Shown: piece by piece, positions 1,540 to 57,196 of the stretch
How positions within the stretch are numbered: the first letter of the stretch is position 1
How the letters are laid out: each line of letters starts with the position of its first letter
Source of the DNA: Extensimonas vulgaris
GTDB taxonomy: Bacteria > Pseudomonadota > Gammaproteobacteria > Burkholderiales > Burkholderiaceae_C
Direction: 5' to 3'
Assembly: GCF_003337425.1 (NCBI RefSeq)
Contig: NZ_QPJU01000003.1
Coordinates: forward strand, 62,001-126,000
DNA: 64,000 bases
Notes under the pieces: generated by a model
Told to the model about the DNA's origin: nothing
The model's database searches: none
The model's input: only the letters and a program-made list of their open reading frames with translations
Made by a program: the position numbers and the translations under genes

Positions 1540-1675
1540 AATTTAAACTAAAATGAGCTGTGATCCAGTTCCATGTGTCCCAAAGGAGGTGCTTCCCAGA
1601 TTAAATGCATTTGTAAGACACGCAATTTTTTAGCTTAGTGTTTAGTATTCGATATTAATTAAATTAGGAGATATT

Positions 1676-2701: not shown

Positions 2702-2733
2702 GATTCGATTGGTCAACTTTTAAGGAGATTATT

Positions 2734-3588: not shown

Positions 3589-3639
3589 AGAGCATTATTA
3601 GCCTAACTATTCAAGGTGAAGGTATTGTTTTGAATTAAA

Positions 3640-3800: not shown

Positions 3801-3805
3801 TTAAA

Positions 3806-4268: not shown

Positions 4269-4280
4269 ATGGAGCTTAAT

Positions 4281-5588: not shown

Positions 5589-6381
5589 GTCATTGATAGA
5601 AAATTTGGCTTTGGAATTGGATGATTGCGAAAGAAATCGAAAGCAAACAAAGCAATTTTCTCTTAGGTATCCAGAGATGACCCTGGAGGATGGTTATGCG
5701 ATTGCGCAAAAATGGGTTGAGTTGAAATCCAAGAATGGTCAGCGCATTGTTGGGCACAAAATAGGCCTCACCTCTAAAACCATGCAGAGGTATAGCAGGA
5801 TATCTGAGCCTGATTACGGAGCTCTATTTGACAAAATGGTTTATGAGGCGAATGGGGATGTGCCTATGTCTAATTTCATTGAGCCGAAGGTTGAGGTCGA
5901 GTTGGCCTTTGTGCTAAAAAAGAAAATTGAAGGTTCTAATATTCGTATTGATGATGTAATTTCTGCGACGGATTTCGTTGTTCCTGCGGTTGAAATAATC
6001 GATGCGAGAATTGAGCGTGTTGATAAAGATACGGGCAAAATGCGTACGGTATTTGATACCATTTCAGACAACGCTGCCAACGCAGGTGTTATCTTGGGCA
6101 GTACTGCAGTAAAGCCAGAAAGTATTGATTTGCGTTGGGTGGCTTCACTCTTGTATAAAAACGGTACTATCGAGGAATCGGGCGTGGCCGCGGGAGTATT
6201 GAACCATCCAGCTAACGGGATTGTGTGGCTCGCAAATCGGTTAAGCAAATGGGGGCAATCTTTGCAACCAGGGGAAATTGTCCTTTCAGGATCTTTTACG
6301 CGCCCAATAGATGTTTCGCCGGGGGATGTATTCCACATTGATTATGGGGCAATGGGCTCTATTCCATTTAGGTTTGCTTGA
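5578..6381 (+). CDS. hpaH: 2-oxo-hept-4-ene-dioate / 2-oxopent-4-enoate hydratase
   Basis: This is a 267-residue member of the fumarylacetoacetase-like hydratases (HpaH, MhpD, DmpE). The central GHKIGLTSKTMQ and EPDYGAL stretches and the metal-binding acids in EPKVEVELAFVL and in the PAVEIIDARI segment are present. The wording around SKTMQRYSRISEPDYGAL is closest to my memory of HpaH of the homoprotocatechuate pathway. The start overlaps the permease stop by 11 bases and has AAGGTGAAG before it. It adds water to the dienoate released by the hydrolase, giving a 4-hydroxy-2-oxo acid for the next enzyme. HpaH versus MhpD specificity remains open. Confidence 0.85.
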   Translation: MLSKSLIENLALELDDCERNRKQTKQFSLRYPEMTLEDGYAIAQKWVELKSKNGQRIVGHKIGLTSKTMQRYSRISEPDYGALFDKMVYEANGDVPMSNFIEPKVEVELAFVLKKKIEGSNIRIDDVISATDFVVPAVEIIDARIERVDKDTGKMRTVFDTISDNAANAGVILGSTAVKPESIDLRWVASLLYKNGTIEESGVAAGVLNHPANGIVWLANRLSKWGQSLQPGEIVLSGSFTRPIDVSPGDVFHIDYGAMGSIPFRFA

Positions 6382-6390
6382 GGCGGCTAA

Positions 6391-7182
6391 ATGTATACTC
6401 ATGATAATAAATTCAAAAATAATCTCAAGGAGCCTGGGGTTCAATGTGGTGTGTGGTGTGTTTTGTCTAACCCATGCTCTACCGAGCTCGTCGCTTCTAT
6501 TGGTTTTGATTGGATTCTGCTGGATGTGGAGCATGCCCCAAACGATTTGCGTTCCATTTTGGCCCAATTGCAGGCCGTAGCTCCATATGACTCGACGCCC
6601 ATCGTCCGACTTCCTGATCACAGTATTACTGCAATAAAGCAATACCTTGATATTGGTGTTAAAAATTTATTAATACCAATGGTTGAAAATGCAACTCAAG
6701 CAAGAGAACTTGTATCTGCAGTGCGTTATCCACCAAGAGGTGTTCGTGGAATTGGCGCGGGATTGGCAAGGGCTTCGCGTTGGGGGGCGATAAAAAATTA
6801 TTTGCAAGACGCGGATGAGCAAATATGCTTGATTCTTCAGATTGAAACTGAGGATGGCTTGAATAATTTAGAAGAGATATTGGATGTTGAAGGCGTTGGC
6901 GCGATTTTTTTTGGGCCTTCCGACCTGGCTGCATCAATGGGTTTCATAGGGAATCCATCTGCTGATGCTGTAAAAAAAATAATTTGCGAGGGAATTTTTG
7001 CTGCCAAAAAGAGAAATGTTCCAACAGGAATACTTTCTTTCAATAAGTCCGATATCGTGGAGTACGTAAAAAGTGGTATTAATTTTATTGCGACTGGAGC
7101 AGATTCGTATATTTTGAGAGTGGGTGCTGAAGCGTTGCTGAGGGAGGGAAGATCTCTGACTAACTTAAGCCTTCATTCTTAA
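6391..7182 (+). CDS. hpaI: HpcH/HpaI-family class II aldolase
   Basis: This 263-residue TIM-barrel aldolase cleaves 4-hydroxy-2-oxo acids to pyruvate plus an aldehyde in a metal-dependent reaction. Visible family marks are the DVEHAPND loop after strand 2, RLPDH, the PPRGVRGIG segment followed by RASRW, the metal-site glutamate in QIETEDGL and the [10 protein letters not shown] motif. It starts 9 bases after the hydratase stop. It takes the place of the DmpG-type aldolase more usual in dienoate pathways, and no aldehyde dehydrogenase follows. Its stop codon overlaps the end of the truncated cca frame, so it marks the right edge of the island. Confidence 0.87.
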
Positions 7183-7601
7183 AATATGACCTTCAGGTCT
7201 TCGCGAAACGCGTCGCTCACGTGGCGCAGCACGCGGCGCTGCAAATCCTGCACCCCGCCATAAGGGTCGATAATGGCTCCAGAGCTTGCTGGATCAGCGC
7301 TGATAGCTATTGCATTGATAGTCAAGTCGCGCCGCGCGAGGTCTTGCTCCAGCGTCACGTCGGGCGAAGCCTGAACCACGAAGCCGCGGTAGCCGCGCCC
7401 GCTCTTGCGCTCGGTGCGCGCCAGCGCATATTCCTCGCGCGTCTGCGGGTGCAAAAACACCGGAAAGTCGCGCCCTACGGGCAAGTAGCCCAGCGCCGTC
7501 ATCTGCTCTGGCGTGGCGCCCACCACCACCCAGTCGCGGTCGTTCACGGGCCGGCCCAGCAACTGATCGCGCACCGCGCCGCCCACCATGTAGATTTGCA
7601 T
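7179..7601 (-). pseudogene. cca: Truncated CCA-adding tRNA nucleotidyltransferase (N-terminal third)
   Basis: The 140 residues begin [16 protein letters not shown] and carry the nucleotidyltransferase GG motif, the DRDW metal-site pair and the [10 protein letters not shown] motif. The frame then breaks inside the conserved DAFRED motif, where intact enzymes continue into the helical domain. The last residues (LKVIF) come from the island. A full enzyme has roughly 400 residues, so this copy should be inactive, and an essential intact cca must exist elsewhere. A short repeat of the AGCGCTGATAGCTATT type sits in frame at about 7274-7321. A second fragment of the same gene start lies at 10371-10477. 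Confidence 0.88.
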
Positions 7602-7667
7602 GGGGCAAGTGTAGTGGCGGCGCGGCCGGGTGGCGCGGGTGGTGCAGGGCGCCGGGCGGCGCAGTTT

Positions 7668-8351
7668 TCAGCGCTGCAGCCGATAGGGCTCCTCGAACGC
7701 GCGGAAGTCCTGCTCGGCCAGCGCGCCGGCAATCCAGTCCTGCACGCCGGGCAGGGCACGCACGCGCTCGACGTAGGCGGCGATGTGCGGCGGCACGGGC
7801 AGGCCGTAGGTGATGAGGCGCATGCACACCGGCGCGAAATACGCGTCCGCGATGCTGAAGCGGCCCAGCAGCAGCGGGCCGCCCGACGCCTGCAGCAAGG
7901 CGTCCCAAAGCTCCACCAGACGCTGCACGTCAGCGCGCACGCCGGCCTGGTCGCGCCAGACGAGGGCACCGATGTCGGGCAGGCGGGCTTCGATGTTCAT
8001 CGGGCAGTGGCTGCGCAGCGCGGTAAAGCCGCTGTGCATCTCGGCGCAGGCGCTGCGGCCCTGCGCGCGGGCGGCGGGGTCTTGCGGCCAGAGTTGTTTG
8101 GCCGGGTACTGTTCGGCCAAGGTCTCGGCAATGGCCAGAGAGTCCCACACGACGAGCGGGCCATCGACCAGCACGGGCACCTTCCCCGCAGGACTGATGC
8201 CTTGCAGGCTGCGCTTGAATTGCGAGTCGGGTGCGAAGCTGTCGAAACGTACCTTCACCTCATCGAAGGCGATGCCCGCCTGGCGCATCAGCACCCAGGG
8301 GCGCATGGACCACGAGGAGTAGTTTTTGTTGCCGATGTAGAGCTTGGGCAT
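7668..8351 (-). CDS. Glutathione S-transferase family protein
   Basis: This 227-residue cytosolic protein has an N-terminal thioredoxin-like domain (MPKLYIGNKNYSSWSMRPW, with the serine-rich SSWS near residue 11 as likely catalytic site and the conserved VPVLVDG proline loop). An all-helical C-terminal domain has the N-capping segment FSIADAYFAPV. The start at 8351 is chosen over upstream in-frame codons because it gives the standard GST N-terminus and has AAGGA upstream. The family conjugates glutathione to electrophiles or isomerises substrates; the substrate is unknown. The gene lies 66 bases upstream of cca on the same strand, and its 3' end is duplicated at 1-190. Confidence 0.88.
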   Translation of the reverse strand: MPKLYIGNKNYSSWSMRPWVLMRQAGIAFDEVKVRFDSFAPDSQFKRSLQGISPAGKVPVLVDGPLVVWDSLAIAETLAEQYPAKQLWPQDPAARAQGRSACAEMHSGFTALRSHCPMNIEARLPDIGALVWRDQAGVRADVQRLVELWDALLQASGGPLLLGRFSIADAYFAPVCMRLITYGLPVPPHIAAYVERVRALPGVQDWIAGALAEQDFRAFEEPYRLQR

Positions 8352-15279: not shown

Positions 15280-16206
15280 TCAGGCATTGATCAGCACATC
15301 GCCTTCACGCCGTGCCGCGCCCGAGCGCACGAGCTCGTCCGCCAAGCTCTCGAGCCAGGCGCGGCGGCTCTGGTCGGCGAAATAGTTTTCATGCAGCATG
15401 CAAAAGTACGGCGTGCCCTCGCCCCAGGCGCAAATGAAGGTCAGCGTGGTCTGCTGCCATTCGAGCAGCTTGTATTTGAGTAAGACCTTGGCGGCATAGA
15501 GCGCGTGCTTGCGCGGGTCTTGCATGAAGCCCTCGAGGCGCCGGCGCGCCACGTCGAGTGCGCGCGCCACGTCGCTGAACATGGGCCCATGGCCCGGCAG
15601 CACCAGGCGCGGCTGCAGCGATTCGATCACGTCGAAGGTGGCGCCGACCTCGGCAAACGCGCTCTCGCCTTCGAGCTCGGGGAACACCACGCCAAAGCCG
15701 TTCGCCCAGAGCGCGTCGGCCGAGATCAGGATGCGCTCCTGCGGCTCGAACAGCACCACGGCGTGCGGATCATGGCCCGGCGCGGCATGCACCTGCCAGA
15801 GCCGGTCGCCGAGCGGGATTTCGCTGCCCGGCTCTAATACGCCGTCGATCTGAAAGCGCGGGCATTCCTGCCCCGTGGGTGTGTAGCTCAGCGCATACGG
15901 GTCCCAGTCGCGCACGTGGGCCGCGAGGCCGGGCGGGATGACGGTCTGCACCTCGGGCCAGGCACTTTGCAGGGCCGCGTTGCCGCCGCAGTGGTCGCTG
16001 TGCAAATGCGTGTTGAGGATGCGCTCGAGCGGCCGCCCGCCGAGCGCGGCGCGCACCAGTTCCACGGTCTGTGCGCCGTGGCTGTGGTAGCCGGTATCGA
16101 CGATGGCCGTGCCGTGGCGGCCCTGGAAAATGATGCTGTTGGCCGATAGCCAGCCGCGCTCGAACAAGGCCATGTCTGGCGGGAGTGTGGGCGGTGCAGA
16201 TGCCAT
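15280..16206 (-). CDS. MBL-fold metallo-hydrolase
   Basis: This 308-residue metallo-beta-lactamase-fold protein has the zinc motif HLHSDH, further ligands in the HDPH, ADALW and GHGPMF segments and a C-terminal helical extension. The start at 16206 (MASAPPTLPPDMALFERG) leads directly into the first strand; a longer in-frame frame upstream lacks conserved content. Related proteins hydrolyse thioesters or lactones, but the substrate here is not evident. It converges with slt. Confidence 0.8.
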   Translation of the reverse strand: MASAPPTLPPDMALFERGWLSANSIIFQGRHGTAIVDTGYHSHGAQTVELVRAALGGRPLERILNTHLHSDHCGGNAALQSAWPEVQTVIPPGLAAHVRDWDPYALSYTPTGQECPRFQIDGVLEPGSEIPLGDRLWQVHAAPGHDPHAVVLFEPQERILISADALWANGFGVVFPELEGESAFAEVGATFDVIESLQPRLVLPGHGPMFSDVARALDVARRRLEGFMQDPRKHALYAAKVLLKYKLLEWQQTTLTFICAWGEGTPYFCMLHENYFADQSRRAWLESLADELVRSGAARREGDVLINA

Positions 16207-16391
16207 GGTGGTGAAATTTCGAGTGCAGTAAAAGGGCGGTGCAGGGGCGACGTGATGGCAGCGGGCTCTGCGCAGGTTCGCTGAGCGAACGGTTGTTTGG
16301 TAAGGTTGCCCGATTTTGCCAATTTTCCGCCGGTTGCGTACAGCCGGTGTTTCGGCAAGGACGTGGACGGCAATGACCCAAAGGAGTGGAC

Positions 16392-17339
16392 ATGAATGCA
16401 CGCTGGCAGCGCGCCGTGGTGTTGGGTTCCTGGCTTGCATGGATCGCCTGGATGGCCTGGCAATGGCCGCGCTCGCCCGCCCATGCGCTTGCGGGCTGGG
16501 CCCTGGCCTGGGGGGTGTACGGGCTCGTGCAGGCGCTGCCTTTCATTTTCATGTGGCGCGCCAACCGGCGCGAGCCCGTGCCGCGCCCCGGTTTGGCGCA
16601 ACTGCTGCACGCCTGGGCCGCCGAAGCGCTGCAGGCTTGCGTGGTGTTCGGCTGGCGCCAGCCTTTTTGCGAACATGCCGGACCCGACTGGCTGCCCGAA
16701 CCGTCGCCGCAGGGGCAGGCGGCGCGCCGCGGCGTGGTGCTGTTGCATGGTTTTTTGTGCAACCGCGGCTTCTGGCTGCCCTGGATGCGCATGCTGCGCG
16801 CGCGCGGTCATGCCTATGTGGCGCTGACGCTGGAGCCCGCGTTCGGCTCGATCGACGACTACGCCCCGGACATAGACGCTGCGGTGCGCCGCGTGACGGC
16901 AGCCACGGGCATGCCGCCCGTCATCATCGGCCACAGCATGGGAGGCCTCGCGGCGCGTGCGTGGTTGCGGGCCTACGCCGGTCTTGGCAATGAAAAAGCC
17001 GGCACTGCAGACGCAGAGGCAGTAGAGCGTCGCGTGCACCGCATCATCACGCTGGGCTCACCGCACGGGGGCACCTGGAGCGCGCGCTTCAGTGCTGCCG
17101 ACAACGCGCGCCAAATGCGCCTGGGCAGCGCCTGGTTGCGCGCCCTGCAGCGGCAAGAGCCGGCGAGCCGCGGCGCGCTCTTTACCTGCTGGTATTCGAA
17201 TTGCGACAGCGTCGTCTTTCCCGCGCGCACGGCCACACTGCCCGGCGCGGACAACCGGCTGGTGCCAGGGGTTGCGCACTTGCAGATGGCTTTCCATGCA
17301 CCACTGGTGCAAGCCTGCCTGGAACTGCTCGACGCTTGA
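16392..17339 (+). CDS. Membrane-anchored alpha/beta hydrolase (lipase-like)
   Basis: In this 315-residue protein two N-terminal hydrophobic segments (about residues 8-25 and 33-55) are followed by an alpha/beta-hydrolase domain. The oxyanion loop is LLHGFLCN, the nucleophile motif GHSMGG, and LGSPHGGTW and a late GVAHLQM histidine follow. This layout is that of triacylglycerol-lipase or PGAP1-like esterases attached to the inner membrane. AAGGAG at 16381-16386 supports the ATG at 16392. The substrate is not known. Confidence 0.8.
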   Translation: MNARWQRAVVLGSWLAWIAWMAWQWPRSPAHALAGWALAWGVYGLVQALPFIFMWRANRREPVPRPGLAQLLHAWAAEALQACVVFGWRQPFCEHAGPDWLPEPSPQGQAARRGVVLLHGFLCNRGFWLPWMRMLRARGHAYVALTLEPAFGSIDDYAPDIDAAVRRVTAATGMPPVIIGHSMGGLAARAWLRAYAGLGNEKAGTADAEAVERRVHRIITLGSPHGGTWSARFSAADNARQMRLGSAWLRALQRQEPASRGALFTCWYSNCDSVVFPARTATLPGADNRLVPGVAHLQMAFHAPLVQACLELLDA

Positions 17340-46892: not shown

Positions 46893-47642
46893 ATGGAACT
46901 GGGTTTGCAAGGCAAGGTGGCCATCGTCACGGGGTCGGGGCGGGGGATTGGGGCGGAGACGGTGCGGGCGCTGGCCGAGGAAGGGGCGCGCGTGGTTGTG
47001 ACCGACATCGACGGTGCGGTGGCGGCCGAGACCTGCGCGGCGCTGCAGCGCGATGGGCTGCAGGCGATTGCGCTGGCGGCGGACGTGACGCGCAGCGCCG
47101 ACGTGGAGCGGCTCGTGCAGGCGGCGCTCGACGCCTTTGGCGGCGTGCACATCCTCGTGAACAACGCAGGCTTTGCGCGCGATGCGCGCATCGTCAAGCT
47201 CAGCGAGGCCGATTGGGACGCGGTGGTGGACACCATCCTCAAGGGGGCGTTTTTGTGCAGCAAGGCCGTGGTGCCGACCATGGCCGAGCAGCAGTGGGGG
47301 CGCATCATCAACATTTCTTCGCGCGCGCACCTGGGCAATCCGGGGCAGGCCAATTACTCGGCGGCCAAGGCGGGCATTCTGGGCTTCAGCAGTGCGCTGT
47401 CGCTGGAGCTCGGGCGCAACGGCATCACCGTGAACACCGTCGCGCCGGGCTTTATCGAGACCGACGGCGTGCGCAACCTGCCGCACTACGCCAAGATCAA
47501 GGAAAACGCCCTTGCGCGCACGCCCGTGGGCCGCGTGGGCCAGCCGCGCGACATCGCGAGCGCGGTGTGCTTTCTTGCGAGCGAGCTCGCGGGCTACGTG
47601 AGCGGCGCCGTGCTGCATGTGACGGGCGGGCGCTACGGCTGA
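46893..47642 (+). CDS. Short-chain dehydrogenase/reductase (FabG-like)
   Basis: This is a 249-residue classical SDR. The cofactor loop is VTGSGRGIGAE, VVVTDID suggests NAD preference, and NNAG, the catalytic ISS serine and YSAAK are present. It likely oxidises a 3-hydroxyacyl-CoA to the 3-oxo form in the CoA pathway encoded downstream. It is the first gene of a nine-gene co-directional cluster and begins immediately after a family B element. Confidence 0.88.
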   Translation: MELGLQGKVAIVTGSGRGIGAETVRALAEEGARVVVTDIDGAVAAETCAALQRDGLQAIALAADVTRSADVERLVQAALDAFGGVHILVNNAGFARDARIVKLSEADWDAVVDTILKGAFLCSKAVVPTMAEQQWGRIINISSRAHLGNPGQANYSAAKAGILGFSSALSLELGRNGITVNTVAPGFIETDGVRNLPHYAKIKENALARTPVGRVGQPRDIASAVCFLASELAGYVSGAVLHVTGGRYG

Positions 47643-47750
47643 CGGCGCGCGGCTGCTGCGTGCCGCGGCTACGGGCACCGACCCTGCGTTGCGGCTTCTT
47701 GCGCCGGCTTTTCCCCTGTTCTCCTTTCCACCCTTCACGGAAGATGCACC

Positions 47751-48899
47751 ATGGATTTTGGCTTTACCCCTGAACAAGACACGCTGCGCGACGCGGTGCG
47801 GCGCTTCATGCGCGAGCGTGTGGCGCCGCGCATCGACGAGTGCGAAAAGAAGCGCGAATTTGCCTGGGACTTGCTGCCGCAGCTGCAGCAGTTCGGCTAC
47901 CTGGGCGGGCTGCTGCCCGAGTCGGCGGGCGGCTTTGGGCTGCGTTACGTGGACTGGGCGATCTTGATGGAAGAGGCGGGCTACTGCTGGCTGTCGCTGC
48001 GCGTGATGATGAACTCGCTCAACATCATCGCCTCGCTGCTGCACCGCCACGGCACGCCCGCGCAACAGCAGCGCTTTCTCGCGCCGCTGCTCGCGGGCCA
48101 GCTGCGCCACTGGATGGCGATCACCGAGCCCAACCACGGCTCCAACGTGGCTGGCATCGAGACGCGCGCCGAAGACCGCGGCGACCATTACCTCGTCAAC
48201 GGCGAAAAGCTCTGGATCACCAACGGCATCCACGGCGACTTCGGCGTGCTCGTGGCGCGCACCTACAGCGCCACTTGCGACGGCGGCATCAGCCTGCTCC
48301 TGATCGACCGCCAGGAGACGCAGTACCAGGCGCGGCGCGCCGACGTGATGTTCATCCGCGCCACGGGCACCTCGCAGCTGAGCTTTCAAGACGCCATCGT
48401 GCCCAAGGCGAACCTGCTGGGCAAGGAGGGCGAGGGGCTCAAGTCCATCCTCACGGGGCTGAACTTCGGGCGCCTCAATGTGGCCATGGGCGCGGTGGGC
48501 GCGGCGCGTGCGGCGCTTGATTTGTCCATCGACTACGCCAAGCAGCGCAAGCAGTTCGGGCGCGTTATCGGCGGCTTTCAGCTCGTGCAAAAGCTCATCG
48601 TGGACATGATGGTGCGCTGCGAGGCGGCGCGCGCGCTCGGCTACCGCGCGGCCTGGACGCTGGACCAGGGTGGCACGGCGCGCACCGAATGCTCGATCGC
48701 CAAGCTCTACGCCGCCGAGGCCGCGCACGAGGTGGCCAGCATGGCGCTGCAGGTGCACGGCGGCTCGGGCTACAGCGAGGACTTGCCGATCGAGCGCATC
48801 TTCCGTGACACGCGCGGCGGCATGATCCCCGAAGGCACGACCGAGATCCAGACCCTGATCATCGGCCGCGAGGTGCTGGGGATTTCCGCCTTCCATTGA
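47751..48899 (+). CDS. Acyl-CoA dehydrogenase
   Basis: This is a 382-residue FAD enzyme. It has an N-terminal helical domain (FTPEQDTLRDAVRRFM), the central WMAITEPNHGSNVAG flavin-contact stretch, the ITNGIHGDFGVLVA region and the C-terminal QVHGGSGYSEDLPIER segment with a GTTE base motif (PEGTTEIQ). It introduces a 2,3-double bond in an acyl-CoA and passes electrons to ETF. It is distinct from the second dehydrogenase of the cluster (54145). Substrate unknown. Confidence 0.9.
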   Translation: MDFGFTPEQDTLRDAVRRFMRERVAPRIDECEKKREFAWDLLPQLQQFGYLGGLLPESAGGFGLRYVDWAILMEEAGYCWLSLRVMMNSLNIIASLLHRHGTPAQQQRFLAPLLAGQLRHWMAITEPNHGSNVAGIETRAEDRGDHYLVNGEKLWITNGIHGDFGVLVARTYSATCDGGISLLLIDRQETQYQARRADVMFIRATGTSQLSFQDAIVPKANLLGKEGEGLKSILTGLNFGRLNVAMGAVGAARAALDLSIDYAKQRKQFGRVIGGFQLVQKLIVDMMVRCEAARALGYRAAWTLDQGGTARTECSIAKLYAAEAAHEVASMALQVHGGSGYSEDLPIERIFRDTRGGMIPEGTTEIQTLIIGREVLGISAFH

Positions 48900-48912
48900 A
48901 AGAGGTGACACC

Positions 48913-50439
48913 ATGGGCATGAGCCTGCTCAAAGCCTTGCGCCTGAATGCGCGCCGCGTGCCGCAGCGCACGGCCCTGCGCTTTCGCGACACGCGGATGA
49001 GTTACGCCGAGCTCCTGCAGGCCACCGAACGCGCGATGTGCGCGCTGGCCGATCTGGGCATTGCGCCCGGCGAAAAGGTGCCGCTGCTGTCGTTCAACCA
49101 CCCCGACATGCTCGTGGCCTACTTTGCGCTCACGGGGTTGGGCGCGGTGCCGGCGCCGCTCAACTACCGCCTGAGCGACGACGACCTGCGCTACGGCATG
49201 GACGCCGCGCACGCGCGCTGGGCCTTGCTGGGTTCGGGCTTTGCCGAGCGCGCCGAGGCGCTCGCGAGCCCCGCGCGGCGCTGGATCTGGTTTGGCGACG
49301 CGGCTGCGCAGGCGCCGCAAGTCCCGCGCGCCGAGCTGCGCTGGGGCGATCTGCTCGCGCAGGCCGGCGGCACACCGCCCGAGGGACGTGACGGCAGCAC
49401 CATCATGCTGCACACCTCGGGCACCACGGGCCGGCCCAAGGGCGCGCTGCGCTCGCGCTTCGGCTTCGAGGAGCGCGCGATCGAGCAGGGCTTCGGCATG
49501 GACGACCACACCTTGTGCGTGCTGCCGCTGTGCCTGTCGGCGGGCTGCGTGTATGCGCTGCTGCCGCTGTACCTGGGCGCGAGCGTGTCGCTGCAAGAGC
49601 ACTTCGACGCGGGCGCGGTGCTCGACGCGATCGAGCGCGAGCGCATCCATTCGGCCATGCTGCTGCCCGCGATGCTGCAGCGCATAGTCGAGCACCCGCG
49701 CTTTGCCACGGCCGACCTGAGCAGCCTGCGCGTGATCCAGTCGGGCGCGGGCGCGATTCCCGCCGCGCTCAAGCGCACGCTGCTCGATCGGCTGGGCGAC
49801 GGCGTGCTCAACATCTACGCGGCCTCGACCGAGGTCGGGCCCTACGCCAACCTCAAAGGGCCCGAAGTGCGCGCGCATTTGGACGGCAATTGCGTGGGGC
49901 GGCCGTTTTTTGGCGTGGAGCTCAAACTGCTCGCCGACGACGGCCACGAAGTGCCCACGGGCGAGGTCGGCGAAATCTGCTGCCGCAGCGATTCGCAGTA
50001 CGACGGCTACTTCGAGGACGAGGCGCTCACCGCGAGCACGCGGCGCGGCGAATTCCTCACCGTGGGCGACCTCGGGCGCTTCGACGCGGACGGGCTGCTG
50101 TATTTCGTGGGCCGCAAGCGCGACATCATCAAAAGCGGCGGCATCAACGTGCACGCCTCCGAGATCGAAGATGTGCTGCAGCAACACCCCGCCGTGGCCG
50201 AGGCGCACTGCATCGGCCTGCCCGACGAGCGCTGGACGGAGCTGATCTGCGCCGTGATCGTGCTGCGCCCCGGCGCGCAGGCGAGCGCCGACGAGATCGC
50301 TGCGTTTGCCGCCGAGCGCCTCGCGCCCTACAAAAAGCCGCGCCGCGTGGTCTTCGTCGATGAAGTGCCGCGCAACCTCACGGGGCGCGTGCTCAAGGCC
50401 CAGCTGGTCGAGCAGGTGCTCGCGGGCGCGCACCGTTGA
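48913..50439 (+). CDS. Acyl-CoA synthetase (AMP-forming ligase)
   Basis: This is a 508-residue ANL-superfamily ligase. It has the P-loop-like MLHTSGTTGRPKGAL, the YAASTEVGPY motif, the hinge region FLTVGDLGRFDADGLLYFVG followed by RKRDIIKSGG, and the C-terminal lysine region NLTGRVLKAQLVEQ. It activates a carboxylic acid to its CoA thioester. It starts 13 bases after the dehydrogenase. The acid is not evident from the sequence; context suggests a medium or branched organic acid. Confidence 0.9.
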   Translation: MGMSLLKALRLNARRVPQRTALRFRDTRMSYAELLQATERAMCALADLGIAPGEKVPLLSFNHPDMLVAYFALTGLGAVPAPLNYRLSDDDLRYGMDAAHARWALLGSGFAERAEALASPARRWIWFGDAAAQAPQVPRAELRWGDLLAQAGGTPPEGRDGSTIMLHTSGTTGRPKGALRSRFGFEERAIEQGFGMDDHTLCVLPLCLSAGCVYALLPLYLGASVSLQEHFDAGAVLDAIERERIHSAMLLPAMLQRIVEHPRFATADLSSLRVIQSGAGAIPAALKRTLLDRLGDGVLNIYAASTEVGPYANLKGPEVRAHLDGNCVGRPFFGVELKLLADDGHEVPTGEVGEICCRSDSQYDGYFEDEALTASTRRGEFLTVGDLGRFDADGLLYFVGRKRDIIKSGGINVHASEIEDVLQQHPAVAEAHCIGLPDERWTELICAVIVLRPGAQASADEIAAFAAERLAPYKKPRRVVFVDEVPRNLTGRVLKAQLVEQVLAGAHR

Positions 50440-50441
50440 AA

Positions 50442-50475
50442 TGCTATTGAATAAAGAGCTGGTAGCGCTTGGTAC
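50442..50475. repeat. Short interspersed repeat, partial copy
   Basis: GCTATTGAATAAAGAGCTGG followed by TAGCGCTTGGTA resembles the repeat at 41835. It makes the 82-base gap between the ligase and the MaoC gene noticeably AT-rich. Confidence 0.5.
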
Positions 50476-50521
50476 ATCTACACGAAAGCCGTTTTTTATC
50501 TAAATTGTGTGAGGAATTTGC

Positions 50522-51010
50522 ATGAACATCCCCGCCCCCGCCTTGCAAGCCCGCCCGTTCTTTTTTGAAGACCTGAACGTGGGTGACTTTTTCGACAGCC
50601 CCACGCGCACCATCACCGAGGCCGACGTGGTCAACTTTGCCTGCCTGTCGGCGGACTTCAACCGCCTGCACGTCGATGCCGAATACGCCAAGGGCACGGC
50701 CTACGGCCAGCGCATCGCGCACGGGCTGCTGGTGCTCGCGGTGATGTCGGGCCTGGTCACGCGCATGCTGCTGAACCAGCACCTCGAGCCCAACCTGATG
50801 GGGCTGCTCGACATCCAGTGCCGCTTCCCCAAGCCGACCTTCATCGGCGACACCGTGCAGGTGCGCGTCTTCGTGGCCGAGAAAACCGCCACCTCCAAGC
50901 CCGACCGCGGCGTGGTCGCGTTCCGCCGCGAGGTGGTCAACCAGCGTGGCGAAGTCGTGGTCGAGGGCGTGTGGAAGCTGCTCGTGCGGCGCCGGCCCGT
51001 CGAGGTGTGA
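50522..51010 (+). CDS. MaoC-like (R)-specific enoyl-CoA hydratase
   Basis: This is a 162-residue hot-dog-fold hydratase. The catalytic Asp and His of hydratase 2 are seen as LSADFNRLHVDAEYAK, followed by GQRIAHGLLVLAVMSGL. It would hydrate a 2-enoyl-CoA to the 3-hydroxyacyl-CoA. A crotonase-type hydratase is also encoded in the cluster, so two stereochemically different hydrations may occur. Confidence 0.88.
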   Translation: MNIPAPALQARPFFFEDLNVGDFFDSPTRTITEADVVNFACLSADFNRLHVDAEYAKGTAYGQRIAHGLLVLAVMSGLVTRMLLNQHLEPNLMGLLDIQCRFPKPTFIGDTVQVRVFVAEKTATSKPDRGVVAFRREVVNQRGEVVVEGVWKLLVRRRPVEV

Positions 51011-51045
51011 AGCGTCCGTTTTCCCTCGTTTTGGAGCCCCGCCCT

Positions 51046-51837
51046 ATGAGCATCAAGACCGACATCGGCTTTACCACGCAAGACCAGATCTTCGTGCGCG
51101 GCCGCAATCTGAGCGAAGACATCCTCGGCAAGATGGACTTCATCGACATGATTTATTTCACCGCCACGGGCCAGGAGCCGAGCGCCCCCTTGCGCGCGAT
51201 GATGAACGCGATCATCGTCACCGCGACCGACCACGGCCTCACGCCCAGCGCGATCGCCGCGCGCATGACCATCCTGGGCGCGCCCGAGTCGCTGCAGGGC
51301 GCGGTGGCCGCCGGGCTGCTCGGCGCGGGCAACCACTTTCTCGGCACCATGCAAAACGCCGCGCAGTTCGCACAGGACCACATCGGCAGCCTGACGCTCG
51401 AGTCGCCTGACGCCGAAGTGGCCGCGCAGGCGCGCAGCGTGGTCAAAAGCTACCGCGCGGCCAAGCGCATCCTGCCCGGCATGGGCCACCCCATCCACAT
51501 CCACGGCGACCCGCGCACGCCGCGGCTGCGCCAGATCGCGCGCGACAACGGCTTCGACGGCAAGCACTGGCGCTTCATGTGCGCGGTGGAACAGGCCGCC
51601 AAGGACGAATACGGCCGCCTGCTGCCCATGAACGCCGCGGGCGCCGTGGGCGCGAGCGTCTCGGACATGGGCCTCGCGCCGATCTGGGCGCGCGCGTTTG
51701 CGCTGATCGGGCGCTCGGCCGGGCTGCTCGCGCACCTCATGGACGAGGCCGCGAAGCCGCTCGGGCAAAAAATCTGGGACTTGATCCTCGCGCAGGACGA
51801 CTCGGCCCAGCTCGCCGGCCTCGCGCCGCGCAACTGA
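51046..51837 (+). CDS. Citryl-CoA lyase-like protein (short citrate-synthase fold)
   Basis: This 263-residue protein has the citrate synthase large-domain pattern, including the active-site histidine motif LPGMGHPIHIHGDPR and the late SVSDMGLAPIWARAFALIGR segment with a possible catalytic aspartate. It is much shorter than citrate synthase (about 430 residues) and resembles citryl-CoA lyases, which cleave a tertiary hydroxyacyl-CoA to acetyl-CoA and an oxo acid. In this cluster it is the only candidate carbon-carbon lyase or thiolase substitute. The reaction is inferred. Confidence 0.8.
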   Translation: MSIKTDIGFTTQDQIFVRGRNLSEDILGKMDFIDMIYFTATGQEPSAPLRAMMNAIIVTATDHGLTPSAIAARMTILGAPESLQGAVAAGLLGAGNHFLGTMQNAAQFAQDHIGSLTLESPDAEVAAQARSVVKSYRAAKRILPGMGHPIHIHGDPRTPRLRQIARDNGFDGKHWRFMCAVEQAAKDEYGRLLPMNAAGAVGASVSDMGLAPIWARAFALIGRSAGLLAHLMDEAAKPLGQKIWDLILAQDDSAQLAGLAPRN

Positions 51838-51967
51838 GGATGGCGCGGCGCCGTCCTGCGCACGATGGCGTTGCCCATCTTCGCTTGCCCGCATTCCACC
51901 GCCGCACCTGACGGCCACCCCCCCCCCGAACCACCATTCCCTTTTTGCCACTGCTTTGAAAAACTCC

Positions 51968-53101
51968 ATGAACTTCGCCGCTTCCGCCTCTGCCCCCGCC
52001 CCGCTCGCGGGCCTGACCGTGCTCGATCTGACCGAACTGCTGCCCGGCCCCTACGCCACGCAGCAAATGGTCGAAATGGGCGCGACCGTGATCAAGGTCG
52101 AGCGCCCCGGCGGCGACAACGCGCGCGGCATGTTCCCGGGGCTGTTTGCCGCCGTGAACCGCGGCAAGAAAAGCATCGTGCTCGACCTCAAGACCGACGC
52201 CGACCGCGCCACGCTCCAGCAGCTCGCGCAGCAGGCCGACGTGCTCATCGAGGGCTACCGCCCCGGCGTCACGACGCGCCTGGGCATCGATTACGCGAGC
52301 CTCAGCGCGCTCAACCCGCGCCTCATTTATTGCTCGATCAGCGGCTACGGCCAGACCGGCCCGGCGCGCCTGTGGCCGGGGCACGACCTCAACTACGCAG
52401 GCATCGCCGGCGTGGTGGCGCTCTCGGGCCACGGCAGCGAGCCCGACTACAGCATCGGCATCCCCGTGGGCGACCTCGCCGCGGCGATGTACGCGCTCGT
52501 GAGCATCCTCGGCGCGCTGCACAGCCGCGCCCGCACGCAAAAGGGCCAGTACCTCGACGTGGCCATCACCGACGCGCTCGCGAGCTGGGTCGTGCCGCGC
52601 CTGGGCGTGTGGAACGAGGCGCGGCAAAAGGGCGAAGTGTTCGACAAGTCCAGGCTCATGAACCACCCCGGCTACGGCATCTTCCGCACCCAAGACCAGC
52701 GCTACATCACCATTGGCGCGATCGAGACGCCGTTCTGGCGCCGCCTCGTGCAGGCGCTCGAACTGAAAGAGTTTGCCGACCCGGCCTACGAGGACTTCGC
52801 CACGCGCAGCCAGGCCTACGAAGCCATCACCGCCGCGCTCGCGCAGCGCATCGCCACGCAGAGCTACGCGCACTGGGCCGCGCTGCTCGAGCGCGCCGAC
52901 GTGCCCTTCGGCCCGCTCAACACGCTCGACGACCTCGCCGACGATCCGCAGCTCAAGGCGCGCGGGCTGGTGCAGCACATAGGCAACGCGCAGATGATCG
53001 CCTTCCCCGTGCCCATGCAGGGCATCGCAGGCGTGGCGCAGGGCGTGCCCGCGCTCGGCGCGCACCAGGCCGAGGTGCTGCAAGCGCTCGCCACGCGCTG
53101 A
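51968..53101 (+). CDS. CaiB/BaiF family CoA-transferase
   Basis: This 377-residue class III CoA-transferase has the N-terminal VLDLTELLPGPYATQ and VIKVERPGGDNAR motifs, INGYGQ-like ISGYGQTGP, and the catalytic aspartate in GIPVGDLAAAM. It moves CoA between a pathway acyl-CoA and a carboxylate. Start ATG 51968 is preferred over an upstream TTG. With the ligase it gives two ways of activating acids in this cluster. Confidence 0.9.
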   Translation: MNFAASASAPAPLAGLTVLDLTELLPGPYATQQMVEMGATVIKVERPGGDNARGMFPGLFAAVNRGKKSIVLDLKTDADRATLQQLAQQADVLIEGYRPGVTTRLGIDYASLSALNPRLIYCSISGYGQTGPARLWPGHDLNYAGIAGVVALSGHGSEPDYSIGIPVGDLAAAMYALVSILGALHSRARTQKGQYLDVAITDALASWVVPRLGVWNEARQKGEVFDKSRLMNHPGYGIFRTQDQRYITIGAIETPFWRRLVQALELKEFADPAYEDFATRSQAYEAITAALAQRIATQSYAHWAALLERADVPFGPLNTLDDLADDPQLKARGLVQHIGNAQMIAFPVPMQGIAGVAQGVPALGAHQAEVLQALATR

Positions 53102-53185
53102 TTCAATCCGCCCCCCACACACGCGCGCCACCCATTGCATGGCAGATTCGCTTTCCAACCCCCGCCGCACGGCCAAGGAGCTCTC

Positions 53186-53998
53186 ATGGCAAGTCCAACA
53201 TTCGAAACCATCCACCTGGACATCGACGCGCTCGGGGTCGCGCGCCTCACGCTCGCGCGCCCCGACATGCACAACGCGCTCAACCCCACCATGTTCGAGG
53301 AAATCGACCAAGCGCTCGACACCATAGAGGCCGACCCGACGGCGCGCGTGGTGGTGCTCAGCGGCGCGGGCGAGAGCTTCTGCGCAGGCGGCGACTTCCG
53401 CTGGCAGCAAAGCCAGCGCGAGCAAAACCGCGCGAGCCGCATCCGCAGCGGCATGCCGCTGGCCCATGTGCTCGCGCGGCTCGACACCTTCGGGCGCCCC
53501 ATCATCGGCCGCATCAACGGCTCGGCCTACGGCGGCGGCGTCGGACTGATCTCGATCTGCGACGTGGTCGTGGCCGTGGACAGCGCCAAGATTTCGCTCA
53601 GCGAAGTGCGCCTGGGCCTGGTGCCCGCGACCATTTCACCTTATGTCGCAGCCAAGCTCGGCCCGAGCTACGCGCGCCGCGTGTTCTTGAACGGCAAGAT
53701 CATGAGCGCCGCCGAGGCGCAGCGCTACGGCCTGGTGCACGAGGTCGTCCCTGCGGCCGAGCTCGACCAGGCCGTGAACGCCGAAATCGACCTCGCGCTC
53801 GCCTGCGCCCCGGGCGCGGTGCAGATGACGAAAAAACTGGTGCAGTACGTGCTCGCGCACGACATGGCCGACAACCTGATCTACACCGTCGATCGCCTCG
53901 CCGACTTCTGGGAAACCGACGAAGCCCGCGAGGGCCTCACGAGCTTCTACGAAAAACGCGCCCCGGCCTGGCGCCGCAAGCACAGCGACAAGGCGTGA
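53186..53998 (+). CDS. Enoyl-CoA hydratase/isomerase (crotonase family)
   Basis: This is a 270-residue crotonase-fold enzyme. Oxyanion-hole segments GESFCAGGDFRW and GSAYGGGVGL and the acid in SLSEVRLGLVPA are seen. The FCAGGD and terminal FYEKRAPAW resemble methylglutaconyl-CoA hydratase-type members more than short-chain hydratases. AAGGAG at 53175-53180 sets the ATG at 53186. It should act on a branched or carboxylated enoyl-CoA. Confidence 0.87.
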   Translation: MASPTFETIHLDIDALGVARLTLARPDMHNALNPTMFEEIDQALDTIEADPTARVVVLSGAGESFCAGGDFRWQQSQREQNRASRIRSGMPLAHVLARLDTFGRPIIGRINGSAYGGGVGLISICDVVVAVDSAKISLSEVRLGLVPATISPYVAAKLGPSYARRVFLNGKIMSAAEAQRYGLVHEVVPAAELDQAVNAEIDLALACAPGAVQMTKKLVQYVLAHDMADNLIYTVDRLADFWETDEAREGLTSFYEKRAPAWRRKHSDKA

Positions 53999-54033
53999 GC
54001 ACCGTGCGCCAACCGTCCAAATTTCTAGAAAAT

Positions 54034-54080
54034 GCAATCAAAAAAGGAGCTGATTGCGCTTTGATATAAAGCGCTAGTTG
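54034..54080. repeat. Short interspersed repeat with hairpin
   Basis: CAATCAAAAAAGGAGCTG precedes GCGCTTT-GATAT-AAAGCGC (54056-54074). It sits in the 146-base AT-rich gap between the hydratase and second dehydrogenase genes and could stop or attenuate the transcript there. Confidence 0.55.
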
Positions 54081-54144
54081 GCATTTTTATAGGTATAAAT
54101 TCACAATCAAAAACGTAGCATTTAGCCCACCCAGGAGACCCACC

Positions 54145-55311
54145 ATGCGCTACACCCACGAACACCGCGAAATCCAGCAGACCCTCAAGCGCTTCATCGA
54201 CGACGAGATCAACCCCCATGTCGATGAATGGGAGGAGGCCGAAATCTTCCCCGCGCACGAGGTCTTCAAAAAACTCGGCAACCTGGGCCTGCTCGGGCTC
54301 ACCAAACCGCAGGAATACGGCGGCGCGGGGCTCGACTACAGCTACAGCGTGGCCATGGCCGAGGCGCTCGGGCACATCGAGTGCGGCGCGATTCCCATGG
54401 CCATCGGCGTGCAAACCGACATGTGCACGCCGGCGCTCGCGCGCTTTGGCAGCGACGAGCTGCGCCGGCAGTTCCTCGCACCCGCGATCGCGGGCGACAT
54501 GGTGGGCTGCATCGGCGTGTCCGAGCCCGGCGCGGGCAGCGACGTGGCGGGCATCAAGAGCCGCGCGCGCAAGGACGGCGACGACTACGTCATCAGCGGC
54601 CAGAAGATGTGGATCACCAACAGCCTGCAGGCCGACTGGATGTGCATGCTGGTCAACACCGGCGATGGCCCCATCCACAAGAACAAAACCTTGGTCATGG
54701 TGCCCATGCGCGAAAACGGCAAGCTGCGCCCCGGCATCGAGGTCGCGCGCAAGATCAAGAAAATCGGCATGAACGCGAGCGACACGGGTCTGATCTACTT
54801 CGACGAGGTGCGCGTGCCGCAGCGCTACCGCATCGGCGAGGAGGGCAAGGGCTTCATCTACCAGATGCAGCAGTTCCAGGAGGAGCGCTTGTGGGCCGCG
54901 GCGAGCTGCCTGCAGTCGCTCACCAACTGCATCCAGTGGACCATCGAATGGGCGCAGGAGCGCAAGTTGTTCGGCGGCGCGCTGGCTGACAAACAGTGGG
55001 TGCAGTTCAAGCTCGCCGAGCTCAAGGCCGAGGTCGAGGCGCTGCGAGCGCTGGTGTACCAGGCGTGCGAGCACTACGTCGCCGGCGAAGACGTGACCGA
55101 GTGGGCCACCATGGCCAAGCTCAAGGCCGGACGCCTGAACCGCATCGTGCCCGACACCTGCCTGCAGTTCTGGGGCGGCATGGGTTTCACCTGGGAAAAC
55201 AAGGTGTCGCGCATGTACCGCGACGGGCGCATCGCCTCGATCGGCGGCGGCGCCGACGAAGTCATGCTCGGCATCCTGGCGAAGATCATGCGCATAGGTT
55301 CGCAGAGCTGA
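54145..55311 (+). CDS. Acyl-CoA dehydrogenase, citronellyl-CoA dehydrogenase-like subgroup
   Basis: This 388-residue FAD enzyme has CIGVSEPGAGSDVAGI, WITNSLQADWMCML and a C-terminal WGGMGFTWENKVSRMYRD. Where many acyl-CoA dehydrogenases have the catalytic EGT motif, it has SIGGGADEVM, as in isovaleryl- and citronellyl-CoA dehydrogenase relatives whose base lies elsewhere. This points to a branched substrate. Its N-terminus (MRYTHEHREIQQTLKRFI) is normal. It is the second dehydrogenase of the cluster. Confidence 0.88.
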   Translation: MRYTHEHREIQQTLKRFIDDEINPHVDEWEEAEIFPAHEVFKKLGNLGLLGLTKPQEYGGAGLDYSYSVAMAEALGHIECGAIPMAIGVQTDMCTPALARFGSDELRRQFLAPAIAGDMVGCIGVSEPGAGSDVAGIKSRARKDGDDYVISGQKMWITNSLQADWMCMLVNTGDGPIHKNKTLVMVPMRENGKLRPGIEVARKIKKIGMNASDTGLIYFDEVRVPQRYRIGEEGKGFIYQMQQFQEERLWAAASCLQSLTNCIQWTIEWAQERKLFGGALADKQWVQFKLAELKAEVEALRALVYQACEHYVAGEDVTEWATMAKLKAGRLNRIVPDTCLQFWGGMGFTWENKVSRMYRDGRIASIGGGADEVMLGILAKIMRIGSQS

Positions 55312-55342
55312 TCTCCACCCACTTTTTGCGAAAAAGGACTCC

Positions 55343-55795
55343 ATGAGCGGCACCTACATTCAAGAAAAACTCCGCCCCAACCACTGCTTCGGCTGCGGGC
55401 CGGACAACCCCTACGGGCTGCAGATCCACAGCTTTTGGGAGGGCGACGAAGTCGTCTGCCGCTGGACGCCCAAGCACTACATGACCGGCCCGCCCAACTT
55501 TCTCTACGGCGGCATCTCGGCGAGCCTGATCGACTGCCACTCGCTCAACGCCGCCATCGCTTGGGCCAACCGCCAGGCCGGGCATGAGGACGCGTTCGAC
55601 CCTGAGCTTTTCATGGTCACGGGCACGATGACGATCAAGTACCACAAGCCCGTGCCCATGCGCGAGGTGGAGCTGCGCGCGCGCATCGCCAAGGTCGAGG
55701 GCCGCAAATACCTCGTGCACACCGACGTCCTGAGCGACGGCGAGCGCTGCGTGAGCGGCGAGGTGCTGGCGATACGCATTGCGCGCATGGGGTAA
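55343..55795 (+). CDS. PaaI-type acyl-CoA thioesterase
   Basis: This 150-residue hot-dog-fold protein has the opening NHCFGCGPDNPYGL and the LYGGISASLIDCHS helix that carry the active site in this thioesterase group. It may release the final product or rescue CoA from dead-end thioesters in the cluster. It is the last gene of the nine-gene run; 126 bases separate it from the binding-protein gene. Confidence 0.85.
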   Translation: MSGTYIQEKLRPNHCFGCGPDNPYGLQIHSFWEGDEVVCRWTPKHYMTGPPNFLYGGISASLIDCHSLNAAIAWANRQAGHEDAFDPELFMVTGTMTIKYHKPVPMREVELRARIAKVEGRKYLVHTDVLSDGERCVSGEVLAIRIARMG

Positions 55796-55921
55796 AAAAC
55801 GGCCGTTGGCGCAGTAGCAGGCAGTTTCACCGAGATCAAAGCTGATGTGCCTGCAAGGAGCGGATGCGAACCAGAAGTTTCGCGCCGCACGCAGTTACCG
55901 CTGGTTAAACTTGCGGCCATC

Positions 55922-57196
55922 GTGAAAAAGACATTGTTACGTTCGTGGGCTTTGCTGGGCATGGGCCTTTTCATGGCCTGCGTGGCATGGGCGCAGACGT
56001 CTGCGGCTGTGCCTGCGGCCGCCAAAGCGCCGCTCGTGATCGCCCATGTCGCGCCCACGAGCGGGCGTTTCGCGCTGCACGCTGAAGCCGATCGGCGCGG
56101 CGCCGAGATGGCCATCGAGGAGTTCAACGCGCGCGGCGGCGTGCTCGGGCGCGAGGTGGTGCTGGTCGCGCGTGACCCCACGCTCGACAAGGCGCGCGCG
56201 GCGCAGGTGGCGCAGCAGCTCATCACCGAGAGCAAGGTGGGCTTTTTGCTCGGCGCCATCGATTCGGGCGTAGCCGCGAGCATGTCCGCGGTCTGCCAGC
56301 AGTACGGCGTGCTGTTCATCAACACCAATTCGTCCGCGCCGTCCGAATCGGTCGAAAACGCGCACCGCAGCAAATTCACGTTCGACGCCAACGGCGCCAA
56401 TTTCAACCGGGCCCTGCTGCAGTACGCGCTGGCGCAGCGCCCCGGCAAGCGCGTGGTGCTGCTCACCGAAGACAACGACTGGGGCCGCAGCAACGCCGCC
56501 GCTTCGCGCGCCATCGTGGCCGAATACGGCGGCAGCGTGGTGGGCGAAGTGCTGGTGCCGGTCGCGCTGCCAGACCCGGCGGGCGCGCTGCGGCAGGTTG
56601 CAGCCATTGCTGCCGACGTGGTGGCGGTCAACGTCAGCGGCAGCAACCAGATCCGCCTGTTCGCGCAAATCGACCCCGCGGTGTTCGAGGCGCAGTCCTG
56701 GGTCGTCGGCGAGGTCGATTGGGAGGAGCTCTACCCCGCGCCCGGCACGCCGCGCCCGCTTTACGGCACCACCTGGGCCTGGAACCTCGACACGCCGGGC
56801 ACGGCGCAGTTCGTGGCGCGCTACCGCGAGCGCTATCGCCACACCCAGCGGCTGCCCTACCCCGGCGACGTGACCCACGCCGCCTACCTGGCCACCAAGG
56901 CGCTGCTCTCGGCCATGGAGCGCACCGGCAGCACCGACAACCACGCGCTGATCCGCGCGCTCGAGGGCATGCGCTGGAGCGCGCGCGAGCGCATGCAGCA
57001 CGACGACGCCTATATGGATCCGCAGAGCCACCATCTGCAGCAGACCATCTACATCGCCACCTGGAAGCCGCGCCCCGACCGGCCCGAGCTCAGCCAGGTG
57101 ATCCTCGGCCACCTGCCACCCGCGCAGGTACGCTACGTGCCCGAAGGCAAGACGCAACTTGAGCCTCTGGCCAGCATGCCGCGCTATGCGCCTTGA
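55922..57196 (+). CDS. Periplasmic ligand-binding protein (Peripla_BP_6, ABC-type)
   Basis: This 424-residue exported protein has a signal peptide (MKKTLLRSWALL ... ending CVAWAQ) and the bilobal branched-chain amino-acid/amide-binding fold (VIAHVAPTSGRFALHA, GAEMAIEEFNARGGVLGR, NTNSSAPSES). GTG 55922 is chosen because it begins the signal peptide. No permease or ATPase genes are nearby; instead a GGDEF-EAL membrane protein starts 18 bases later. A role as an extracellular sensor for that protein is likely. Confidence 0.88.
   Translation: MKKTLLRSWALLGMGLFMACVAWAQTSAAVPAAAKAPLVIAHVAPTSGRFALHAEADRRGAEMAIEEFNARGGVLGREVVLVARDPTLDKARAAQVAQQLITESKVGFLLGAIDSGVAASMSAVCQQYGVLFINTNSSAPSESVENAHRSKFTFDANGANFNRALLQYALAQRPGKRVVLLTEDNDWGRSNAAASRAIVAEYGGSVVGEVLVPVALPDPAGALRQVAAIAADVVAVNVSGSNQIRLFAQIDPAVFEAQSWVVGEVDWEELYPAPGTPRPLYGTTWAWNLDTPGTAQFVARYRERYRHTQRLPYPGDVTHAAYLATKALLSAMERTGSTDNHALIRALEGMRWSARERMQHDDAYMDPQSHHLQQTIYIATWKPRPDRPELSQVILGHLPPAQVRYVPEGKTQLEPLASMPRYAP

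Follow-up and report, generated by a model that had tools for sequence, protein, structure and literature searches.

A conserved acyl-CoA gene cluster in Extensimonas vulgaris carries a citrate-synthase-fold protein without the catalytic His and Asp of citryl-CoA lyases

Results

A nine-gene acyl-CoA cluster in Extensimonas vulgaris

We examined a stretch of 64,000 nucleotides from Extensimonas vulgaris (the window; part of contig NZ_QPJU01000003.1, our contig C3, in a genome of 3.09 Mb), in which nine open reading frames without internal stops occupy 46893–55795, all on the + strand. An earlier note on this DNA had read them as an acyl-CoA pathway, and Pfam and NCBIfam profiles return the nine families that it listed: a FabG-like short-chain dehydrogenase/reductase (SDR), two acyl-CoA dehydrogenases (ACAD1 and ACAD2), an AMP-binding ligase, a MaoC hydratase, a class III CoA-transferase (CaiB), a crotonase-family hydratase (ECH), a 4HBT thioesterase and a citrate-synthase-fold protein (PF00285/NF004868), which is annotated as citryl-CoA lyase and which we call CCL. 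The core of this cluster recurs in Rhodobacterales, and CCL has neither of the two catalytic residues expected of its annotation. The genes are given below from 5′ to 3′, with the gene that directly follows them.

46893..47642, + strand: SDR, FabG/BbsD-like candidate 3-hydroxyacyl-CoA dehydrogenase, 249 amino acids (aa); 62% identity in Roseovarius indicus
47751..48899, + strand: ACAD1, acyl-CoA dehydrogenase, 382 aa; 65.5% identity in R. indicus
48913..50439, + strand: AMP-dependent acyl-CoA ligase, 508 aa; 60% identity in R. indicus
50522..51010, + strand: MaoC-type enoyl-CoA hydratase, 162 aa; 76% identity in R. indicus
51046..51837 including the stop, + strand: CCL, citrate-synthase-fold protein annotated as citryl-CoA lyase (NF004868), 263 aa; 78% identity in R. 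indicus
51956..53101, + strand: class III (CaiB/BaiF) CoA-transferase; 64% identity in R. indicus
53183..53998, + strand: crotonase-family hydratase (ECH); NF005675 at 348.7 bits, slightly below the cut-off of 350; no match in the R. indicus locus
54145..55311, + strand: ACAD2, acyl-CoA dehydrogenase with a GGGADE motif, 388 aa; best match in the R. indicus locus only 31%
55343..55795, + strand: hotdog-fold thioesterase (4HBT), 150 aa; 94% identity in a third Extensimonas genome (G135), no match in the R. indicus locus
55847..57196, + strand: LivK-type periplasmic binding protein (PF13458), directly after the nine genes; 93% identity in a related Extensimonas cluster (L001)

The length of the lyase-like protein and the presence of GGGADE in one of the two acyl-CoA dehydrogenases agree with the earlier note, as does the finding that none of the nine genes matches a profile for thiolase, 3-hydroxy-3-methylglutaryl-CoA (HMG-CoA) lyase or biotin carboxylase. 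No above-cut-off match to PF00108 or PF00682 lies inside the window, where a single sub-cut-off PF00108 match was seen at 22284; in the genome as a whole PF00108 has 11 matches (10 above cut-off) and PF00682 has four. For the SDR, the best profile models were of FabG type (275 bits, below the cut-off of 296), and the best match in the PDB was the (3R)-hydroxyacyl-CoA dehydrogenase 2et6, followed by BbsD (7pcs_B, E 2.4e-65) and FabG (E 6.5e-62). The CaiB protein passes its profile (PF02515, 346 bits) with racemases scoring lower, and is a putative transferase. The second-best model for the crotonase was gamma-carboxygeranoyl-CoA hydratase, at 206 bits against a cut-off of 426. Judged from sequence, the cluster is flanked on its 5′ side by an apparent molybdate-uptake block and on its 3′ side by a GGDEF/EAL protein; a search of a phage collection gave no match.

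Conservation and origin of the cluster

A contig scan returned 11 relatives of CCL, one from Extensimonas perlucida (96% identity) and ten from Rhodobacterales (76–78%), and all nine cluster proteins are 93–97% identical to those of E. perlucida HX2-24. The complete order SDR–ACAD1–AMP-ligase–MaoC–CCL–CaiB is present in seven of the ten Rhodobacterales loci, the remaining three being on contigs that end upstream; because the core order recurs in this way, we consider the cluster to be more than a chance arrangement. Six of the ten loci have a full-length NDP-forming acyl-CoA ligase between MaoC and CCL, and the number with a third ACAD after CaiB is again six. Plasmids of R. indicus and Paracoccus sp. 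carry this core preceded by TRAP transporter genes, and a Sagittula plasmid has it in partly eroded form; all three plasmids were typed as conjugative. Of the six cluster genes with a counterpart in R. indicus, CCL has diverged least (78% versus 60–76% for the other five), and its ratio of nonsynonymous to synonymous substitution rates (dN/dS) against L001 is 0.14, with the other eight genes at 0.08–0.33.

Closer to the window, 46 of 299 Comamonadaceae genomes encode a family member at E ≤ 1e-40, and besides the window's own genome only one of them (G222) has a 97% ortholog of CCL. In a tree of 72 proteins, a clade of 20 rows that includes the window (clade A) falls on one side of a branch with support of 99/91, and the two Extensimonas CCLs nest among Rhodobacterales rows (97/69, a branch not starred by the program). 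This nesting suggests that the cassette reached Extensimonas by horizontal transfer, from the Rhodobacterales side as far as the direction can be inferred. Clade A also includes distant Comamonadaceae loci, two of which (L048 and L051) have the order SDR–ACAD–MaoC–NDP-ligase–CCL–CaiB and one of which (L049) has an altered order; tripartite tricarboxylate binding proteins are encoded nearby. The conserved cluster that the earlier note proposed to look for is present, with its core order kept in Rhodobacterales and more loosely in other Comamonadaceae.

Gains and losses were observed around the Extensimonas cluster itself. L001 has two genes more than the window, a third ACAD (best match in the window's genome ACAD1, at 41%) and a second LivK-type binding protein, and the DNA flanking these genes aligns with the window at 91–95%. 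In G135, the thioesterase and binding protein (93–94%) come immediately after the SDR and ACAD1 (97–98%), and all genes between ACAD1 and the thioesterase, CCL included, are absent. In the Comamonadaceae genome G199, the AMP-ligase (79%) and MaoC (84%) adjoin a broken CCL. The loci L195 and L196 represent the window's cluster in eroded form.

CCL lacks the catalytic His and Asp of citryl-CoA lyases

CCL belongs to NF004868 (PRK06224.1-5, named citryl-CoA lyase) at 328.8 bits, well over the cut-off of 193. This model is broad: L077, a protein that keeps both catalytic residues, also passes it (208 bits), though PRK06224.1-6 fits L077 better. The closest solved relative of CCL is the Hydrogenobacter citryl-CoA lyase 6hxp (E 2.6e-32). 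Taking H274 and D375 of pig citrate synthase as the catalytic His and Asp, we aligned CCL to 6hxp with phmmer and to L077 and the genome's own citrate synthase (GltA, encoded elsewhere) with hhalign, which places Phe98 at the H274 position and Ala198 at the D375 position. We then compared 70 distinct family members, defined as the best CCL match per locus from 74 loci of more than 6 kb with identical proteins removed; this set does not include the short locus L077 or the additional copies present in L002 and L048. His at the H274 position and Asp at the D375 position were each found in 0 of the 70, the window's protein included, and both are present in 6hxp, L077 and the genome's own citrate synthase. 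Position 98 is occupied by F (52), I (9), V (6) or Y (3), and position 198 by T (35), A (19), S (9), N (6) or V (1).

The residues expected to contact the oxo acid fared differently. H63 (H238), R157 (R329) and R223 (taken as R401) are kept in all 70 proteins, and H148, at the H320 position, is His in 65, Q in 4 and S in 1. Ser68 and Arg73 are shared with 6hxp, L077 and GltA in a profile alignment, and three positions set the family apart from these same proteins: P80 (70/70), E or D at 81 (69/70) and Q84 (68/70), which form a P-[ED]-x-x-Q motif in nearly all members. Position 81 is Asn in 6hxp, L077 and GltA alike, and the new acid there is at most a candidate for part of an altered active site. 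On these alignments, the oxo-acid half of the pocket is retained and the acetyl-CoA-enolate half altered. A structure prediction of CCL from 12 sequences gave a mean predicted local distance difference test score (pLDDT) of 62 and a predicted template-modelling score (pTM) of 0.57.

Without the His and Asp of citryl-CoA lyases, canonical cleavage of citryl-CoA or citramalyl-CoA is not expected of the family, for which the database name is probably wrong. That CCL is nevertheless what its annotation says, a true citryl-CoA lyase or a (2-methyl)citrate synthase, agrees with the NCBIfam name and score; we regard it as very improbable, given that both catalytic positions are replaced in 70 of 70 members and intact in 6hxp, L077 and GltA, and that the genome encodes a citrate synthase of its own. 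Among the literature matches listed, neither this gene set nor NF004868 proteins were the subject of a published study, in keeping with the earlier note, which knew of no described pathway with exactly these genes.

Gene company of the family

We counted genes within 8 kb of CCL and in 40 control regions. Gene labels came from 98 reference proteins, partly drawn from the same loci, and control rates may be understated; the control regions were hand-placed at set contig fractions, with plasmids and the records behind L002–L011 left out of the sampling. The trio of ACAD, hydratase and SDR was found near 14 of 20 CCLs in clade A, 3 of 35 in clade T and none of 15 in clade NS (17/70 overall), and in 0 of 40 controls. 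A CoA-activating gene (CaiB, AMP- or NDP-ligase) was far more general, being near 67 of the 70 family members versus 6 of 40 controls, and carboxylate-transport genes were near 48 of 70 versus 13 of 40. Within clade A, an NDP-ligase is near 12 of the 20 CCLs and a thiolase-fold gene near one.

These counts bear on a reading in which CCL cleaves no C–C bond at all, acting instead as a CoA-ester hydrolase, an isomerase or a non-catalytic partner of CoA-activating enzymes, with a thiolase encoded elsewhere cutting the chain. What accompanies CCL across all clades is indeed the CoA-activating gene rather than the trio, the ten above-cut-off PF00108 matches could supply a thiolase, and the replacement of both catalytic positions throughout the family would be accounted for; ATP-citrate lyase and the citryl-CoA synthetase/lyase pair also join such folds. 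Against this, the many invariant pocket positions, the low dN/dS and the standing of CCL as the best-conserved gene point to a catalyst, and hydrolysis of a freshly made CoA ester would be futile. We regard this reading as a live alternative, though a rather unlikely one.

As comparators, we used 18 loci (L197–L214) that hold the nearest relatives of ACAD1 or MaoC without CCL, setting aside the eroded L195 and L196. A thiolase-fold gene is present in seven of the 18. The trio is present in six, four of which have a thiolase-fold gene, as against one of the 14 clade-A trio loci (p 0.014). Three comparators (L197–L199) combine ACAD1 relatives of 59–61% identity with an NDP-ligase and CaiB and, in divergent orientation, a thiolase-fold gene, ECH and SDR, and lack CCL; they hardly differ from the cassette except in the exchanged cleavage gene. 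The thiolase-fold protein of L199 scores 290 bits with the lipid-transfer protein model NF006102 and 246 bits with the BbsB model, both below cut-off, and L198 and L199 read ENASASG where, as we take it, thiolases carry their Cys.

A proposed route with CCL in place of a thiolase

We tentatively prefer, at somewhat less than an even chance, a reading of the cluster as a horizontally acquired, bbs-like beta-oxidation cassette for a small carboxylic acid, in which CCL would cleave a C–C bond in thiolase's stead; for clade A we find this the most economical reading. In its favour are the trio near clade-A CCLs with a thiolase-fold gene near just one of the 20, the CoA-activating genes near most family members, the contrast with the comparators, the PDB matches of the SDR, the run of ACAD, MaoC, SDR and CCL in Rhodococcus DMU1, the NDP-ligases of clade A and the strong conservation of CCL. 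The acid would be imported, perhaps with the help of the LivK-type protein, and either the AMP-ligase or the CaiB transferase would attach CoA to it. ACAD1 would then convert the acyl-CoA to a 2-enoyl-CoA, MaoC would hydrate this to a 3-hydroxyacyl-CoA and the SDR would oxidize it to a 3-oxoacyl-CoA. Cleavage of the latter by CCL would yield acetyl-CoA, or a different acyl-CoA, together with either a carboxylic acid or a second acyl-CoA. In such a cleavage, the 3-oxo group could be held at the oxaloacetate site of citrate synthase, with H148 aiding the addition of water or CoA and collapse of the adduct expelling an acyl-CoA enolate, all without equivalents of His274 and Asp375. That the residues on the carboxylate and carbonyl side are retained points to a substrate carrying a second carboxylate. 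In many relatives an NDP-forming ligase adjoins CCL and could turn a free acid back into its CoA ester, a hint that cleavage is hydrolytic and not thiolytic.

The earlier note had CCL act on a different intermediate, a tertiary 3-hydroxyacyl-CoA formed by the crotonase or MaoC from a branched or dicarboxylic acid and split by retro-aldol cleavage to acetyl-CoA and an oxo acid, with CCL standing in for HMG-CoA lyase. This is the type of split known for the fold (6hxp) and would make use of the oxo-acid-side residues; it also fits the second-best model of the crotonase and the lipid-transfer-type proteins of the comparator clusters, a thiolase-fold group that includes retro-aldolases. However, it needs no SDR, yet an SDR belongs to the conserved core; both residues of the known enolate chemistry are replaced; the crotonase has no counterpart in the R. 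indicus cluster; and plasmids of Sulfitobacter and Sagittula (L084 and L186) carry an annotated HMG-CoA lyase beside SDR, CCL, ACAD and MaoC, so that in these loci CCL does not replace that enzyme. The SDR in the core and this HMG-CoA lyase favour a 3-oxoacyl-CoA as the substrate, and we regard the retro-aldol route as unlikely. What we retain from the earlier mechanism is the acyl-CoA oxidation cassette with a citrate-synthase-fold protein where a thiolase would stand.

Several observations weigh against the 3-oxoacyl-CoA cleavage that we prefer. Loss of the H274 and D375 equivalents removes the known means of acetyl-CoA enolate formation and protonation, so cleavage needs another mechanism, and FabG reductases match the SDR almost as well. 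An NDP-ligase is absent from the window's cluster, the nearest in the genome being 40% identical. Relative to the controls, no depletion of thiolase-fold genes is seen around CCL (3/70 versus 3/40, p 0.67), and the comparator test is small, with close relatives among the loci on both sides, such that its p value flatters the difference; the thiolase-fold proteins of the comparators may also not be classical thiolases. Six of the 20 clade-A loci lack the trio, of which three (L006, L007 and L011) are cut off upstream and three (L047, L052 and L082) are not, and in the other clades the trio is mostly absent. Lastly, among four clade-NS loci that we inspected, L113 and L126 have an intradiol-dioxygenase-like gene and L105 and L126 a methionine-synthase-like gene, neighbours that suggest a use of the clade-NS proteins in aromatic ring-cleavage pathways.

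Other settings of the family

Outside clade A, the company of CCL varies. In Rhodococcus DMU1, ACAD, MaoC, SDR and CCL are contiguous and followed by TRAP genes, none of the genes labelled nearby being CoA-activating, and the Sulfitobacter and Sagittula plasmids, of another clade, add a carboxylase pair to the genes named above. The haloarchaeon Natrinema combines ACADs, a ligase, ECH, CCL and SDR; Limimaricola has a CoA-transferase, CCL, a CoA-ester lyase, an ACAD and MmgE/PrpD; and CaiB is near 13 of 15 CCLs in clade NS. The NF004868 family extends beyond beta-oxidation. Common to its members is a CoA ester, and the acid in it may present a carboxylate or carbonyl group to the conserved Arg/His side. 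It is possible, though we would not call it probable, that these proteins form a new enzyme class of the citrate synthase fold, in which the acyl-CoA side of the active site has been rebuilt with the P-[ED]-x-x-Q motif instead of H274 and D375, and which cleaves C–C bonds or otherwise converts CoA thioesters in the catabolism of carboxylic acids in bacteria and at least one haloarchaeon, and which stands in for thiolase in clade A.

The genes that regularly accompany CCL leave only a small set of candidate substrates and reactions. Should C–C cleavage prove true, a thiolase substitute would be added to the known routes for cutting acyl chains; should it prove false, a widespread annotation would still be corrected. 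In 70 of 70 members the two key catalytic positions are replaced.

Further copies of the gene were noted. A paralogous NF004868-type protein in the window's genome (41% identical; G000:C4:83386–84117, in loci L013 and L055) likewise has neither the catalytic His nor the catalytic Asp, and its gene follows MmgE/PrpD (a label of our own) and CitE in a cluster with CaiB, ACAD, ECH and AMP-ligase. In L048, NF004868 genes occur twice in one genome, separated by about 11 kb (4242–5009 and 15720–16505). An SDR, a MaoC and an NDP-ligase-like gene precede each of them; the H320 position is Ser in the first copy, whose matched frame was reported to contain a stop.

Comparison with known systems

The benzylsuccinate (bbs) beta-oxidation genes comprise BbsEF, BbsG, BbsH, BbsCD and BbsAB. 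Like them, the window's cluster brings together a CaiB-type transferase, an ACAD, a hydratase and an SDR, and BbsD is the second-best PDB match of that SDR; unlike them, it has a MaoC hydratase in its core, an AMP-ligase (with an NDP-ligase in relatives) and a citrate-synthase-fold protein in place of the BbsAB thiolase. The Hydrogenobacter citryl-CoA lyase, which pairs with a citryl-CoA synthetase, resembles CCL in fold family and length, and the NDP-forming ligase directly upstream of CCL in relatives recalls this pairing, whereas the catalytic positions are replaced in CCL and its neighbours are of beta-oxidation type. With the Atu/Liu pathway of acyclic terpenes and leucine, the cluster shares ACADs, an AMP-ligase and a crotonase with some affinity to gamma-carboxygeranoyl-CoA hydratase, but it has no carboxylase pair and no HMG-CoA lyase; in L084 and L186 both adjoin CCL, which is there an extra gene.

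A described itaconate/methylsuccinate cluster also groups a CoA-transferase, an ACAD, a hydratase and a CoA-ester lyase, the last being an (S)-citramalyl-CoA lyase, and the excerpt of that paper names no SDR (PMC12290011). A likeness to it in the window's genome is the paralogous CCL in its CaiB–MmgE–CitE–CCL setting. The (S)-citramalyl-CoA lyase, which we presume to be of CitE type, does not have the citrate synthase fold. We also weighed VceA/VceB, as excerpted, as an analogue for a ligase/beta-keto-acid pair (PMC11837543) and set it aside, and ThnP as a precedent for a CoA shift within a dicarboxylate, which the excerpt gives as a family I transferase (PMC11659651).

Other features of the window and genome

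At its other end, the window has a segment (784–7182) of low guanine–cytosine content (0.43–0.47 over 1–8000 versus about 0.63–0.72 elsewhere), with genes that we judge from sequence to encode an IclR regulator, a porin, an MhpC-like hydrolase, an MFS transporter, an MhpD/oxalocrotonate-decarboxylase-like protein and an HpcH-like aldolase; it looks like an imported aromatic meta-cleavage island. In the genome as a whole (G000, 3.1 Mb), a single acyl-CoA dehydrogenase query gave 36 matches, which suggests an acyl-CoA-rich catabolic repertoire.

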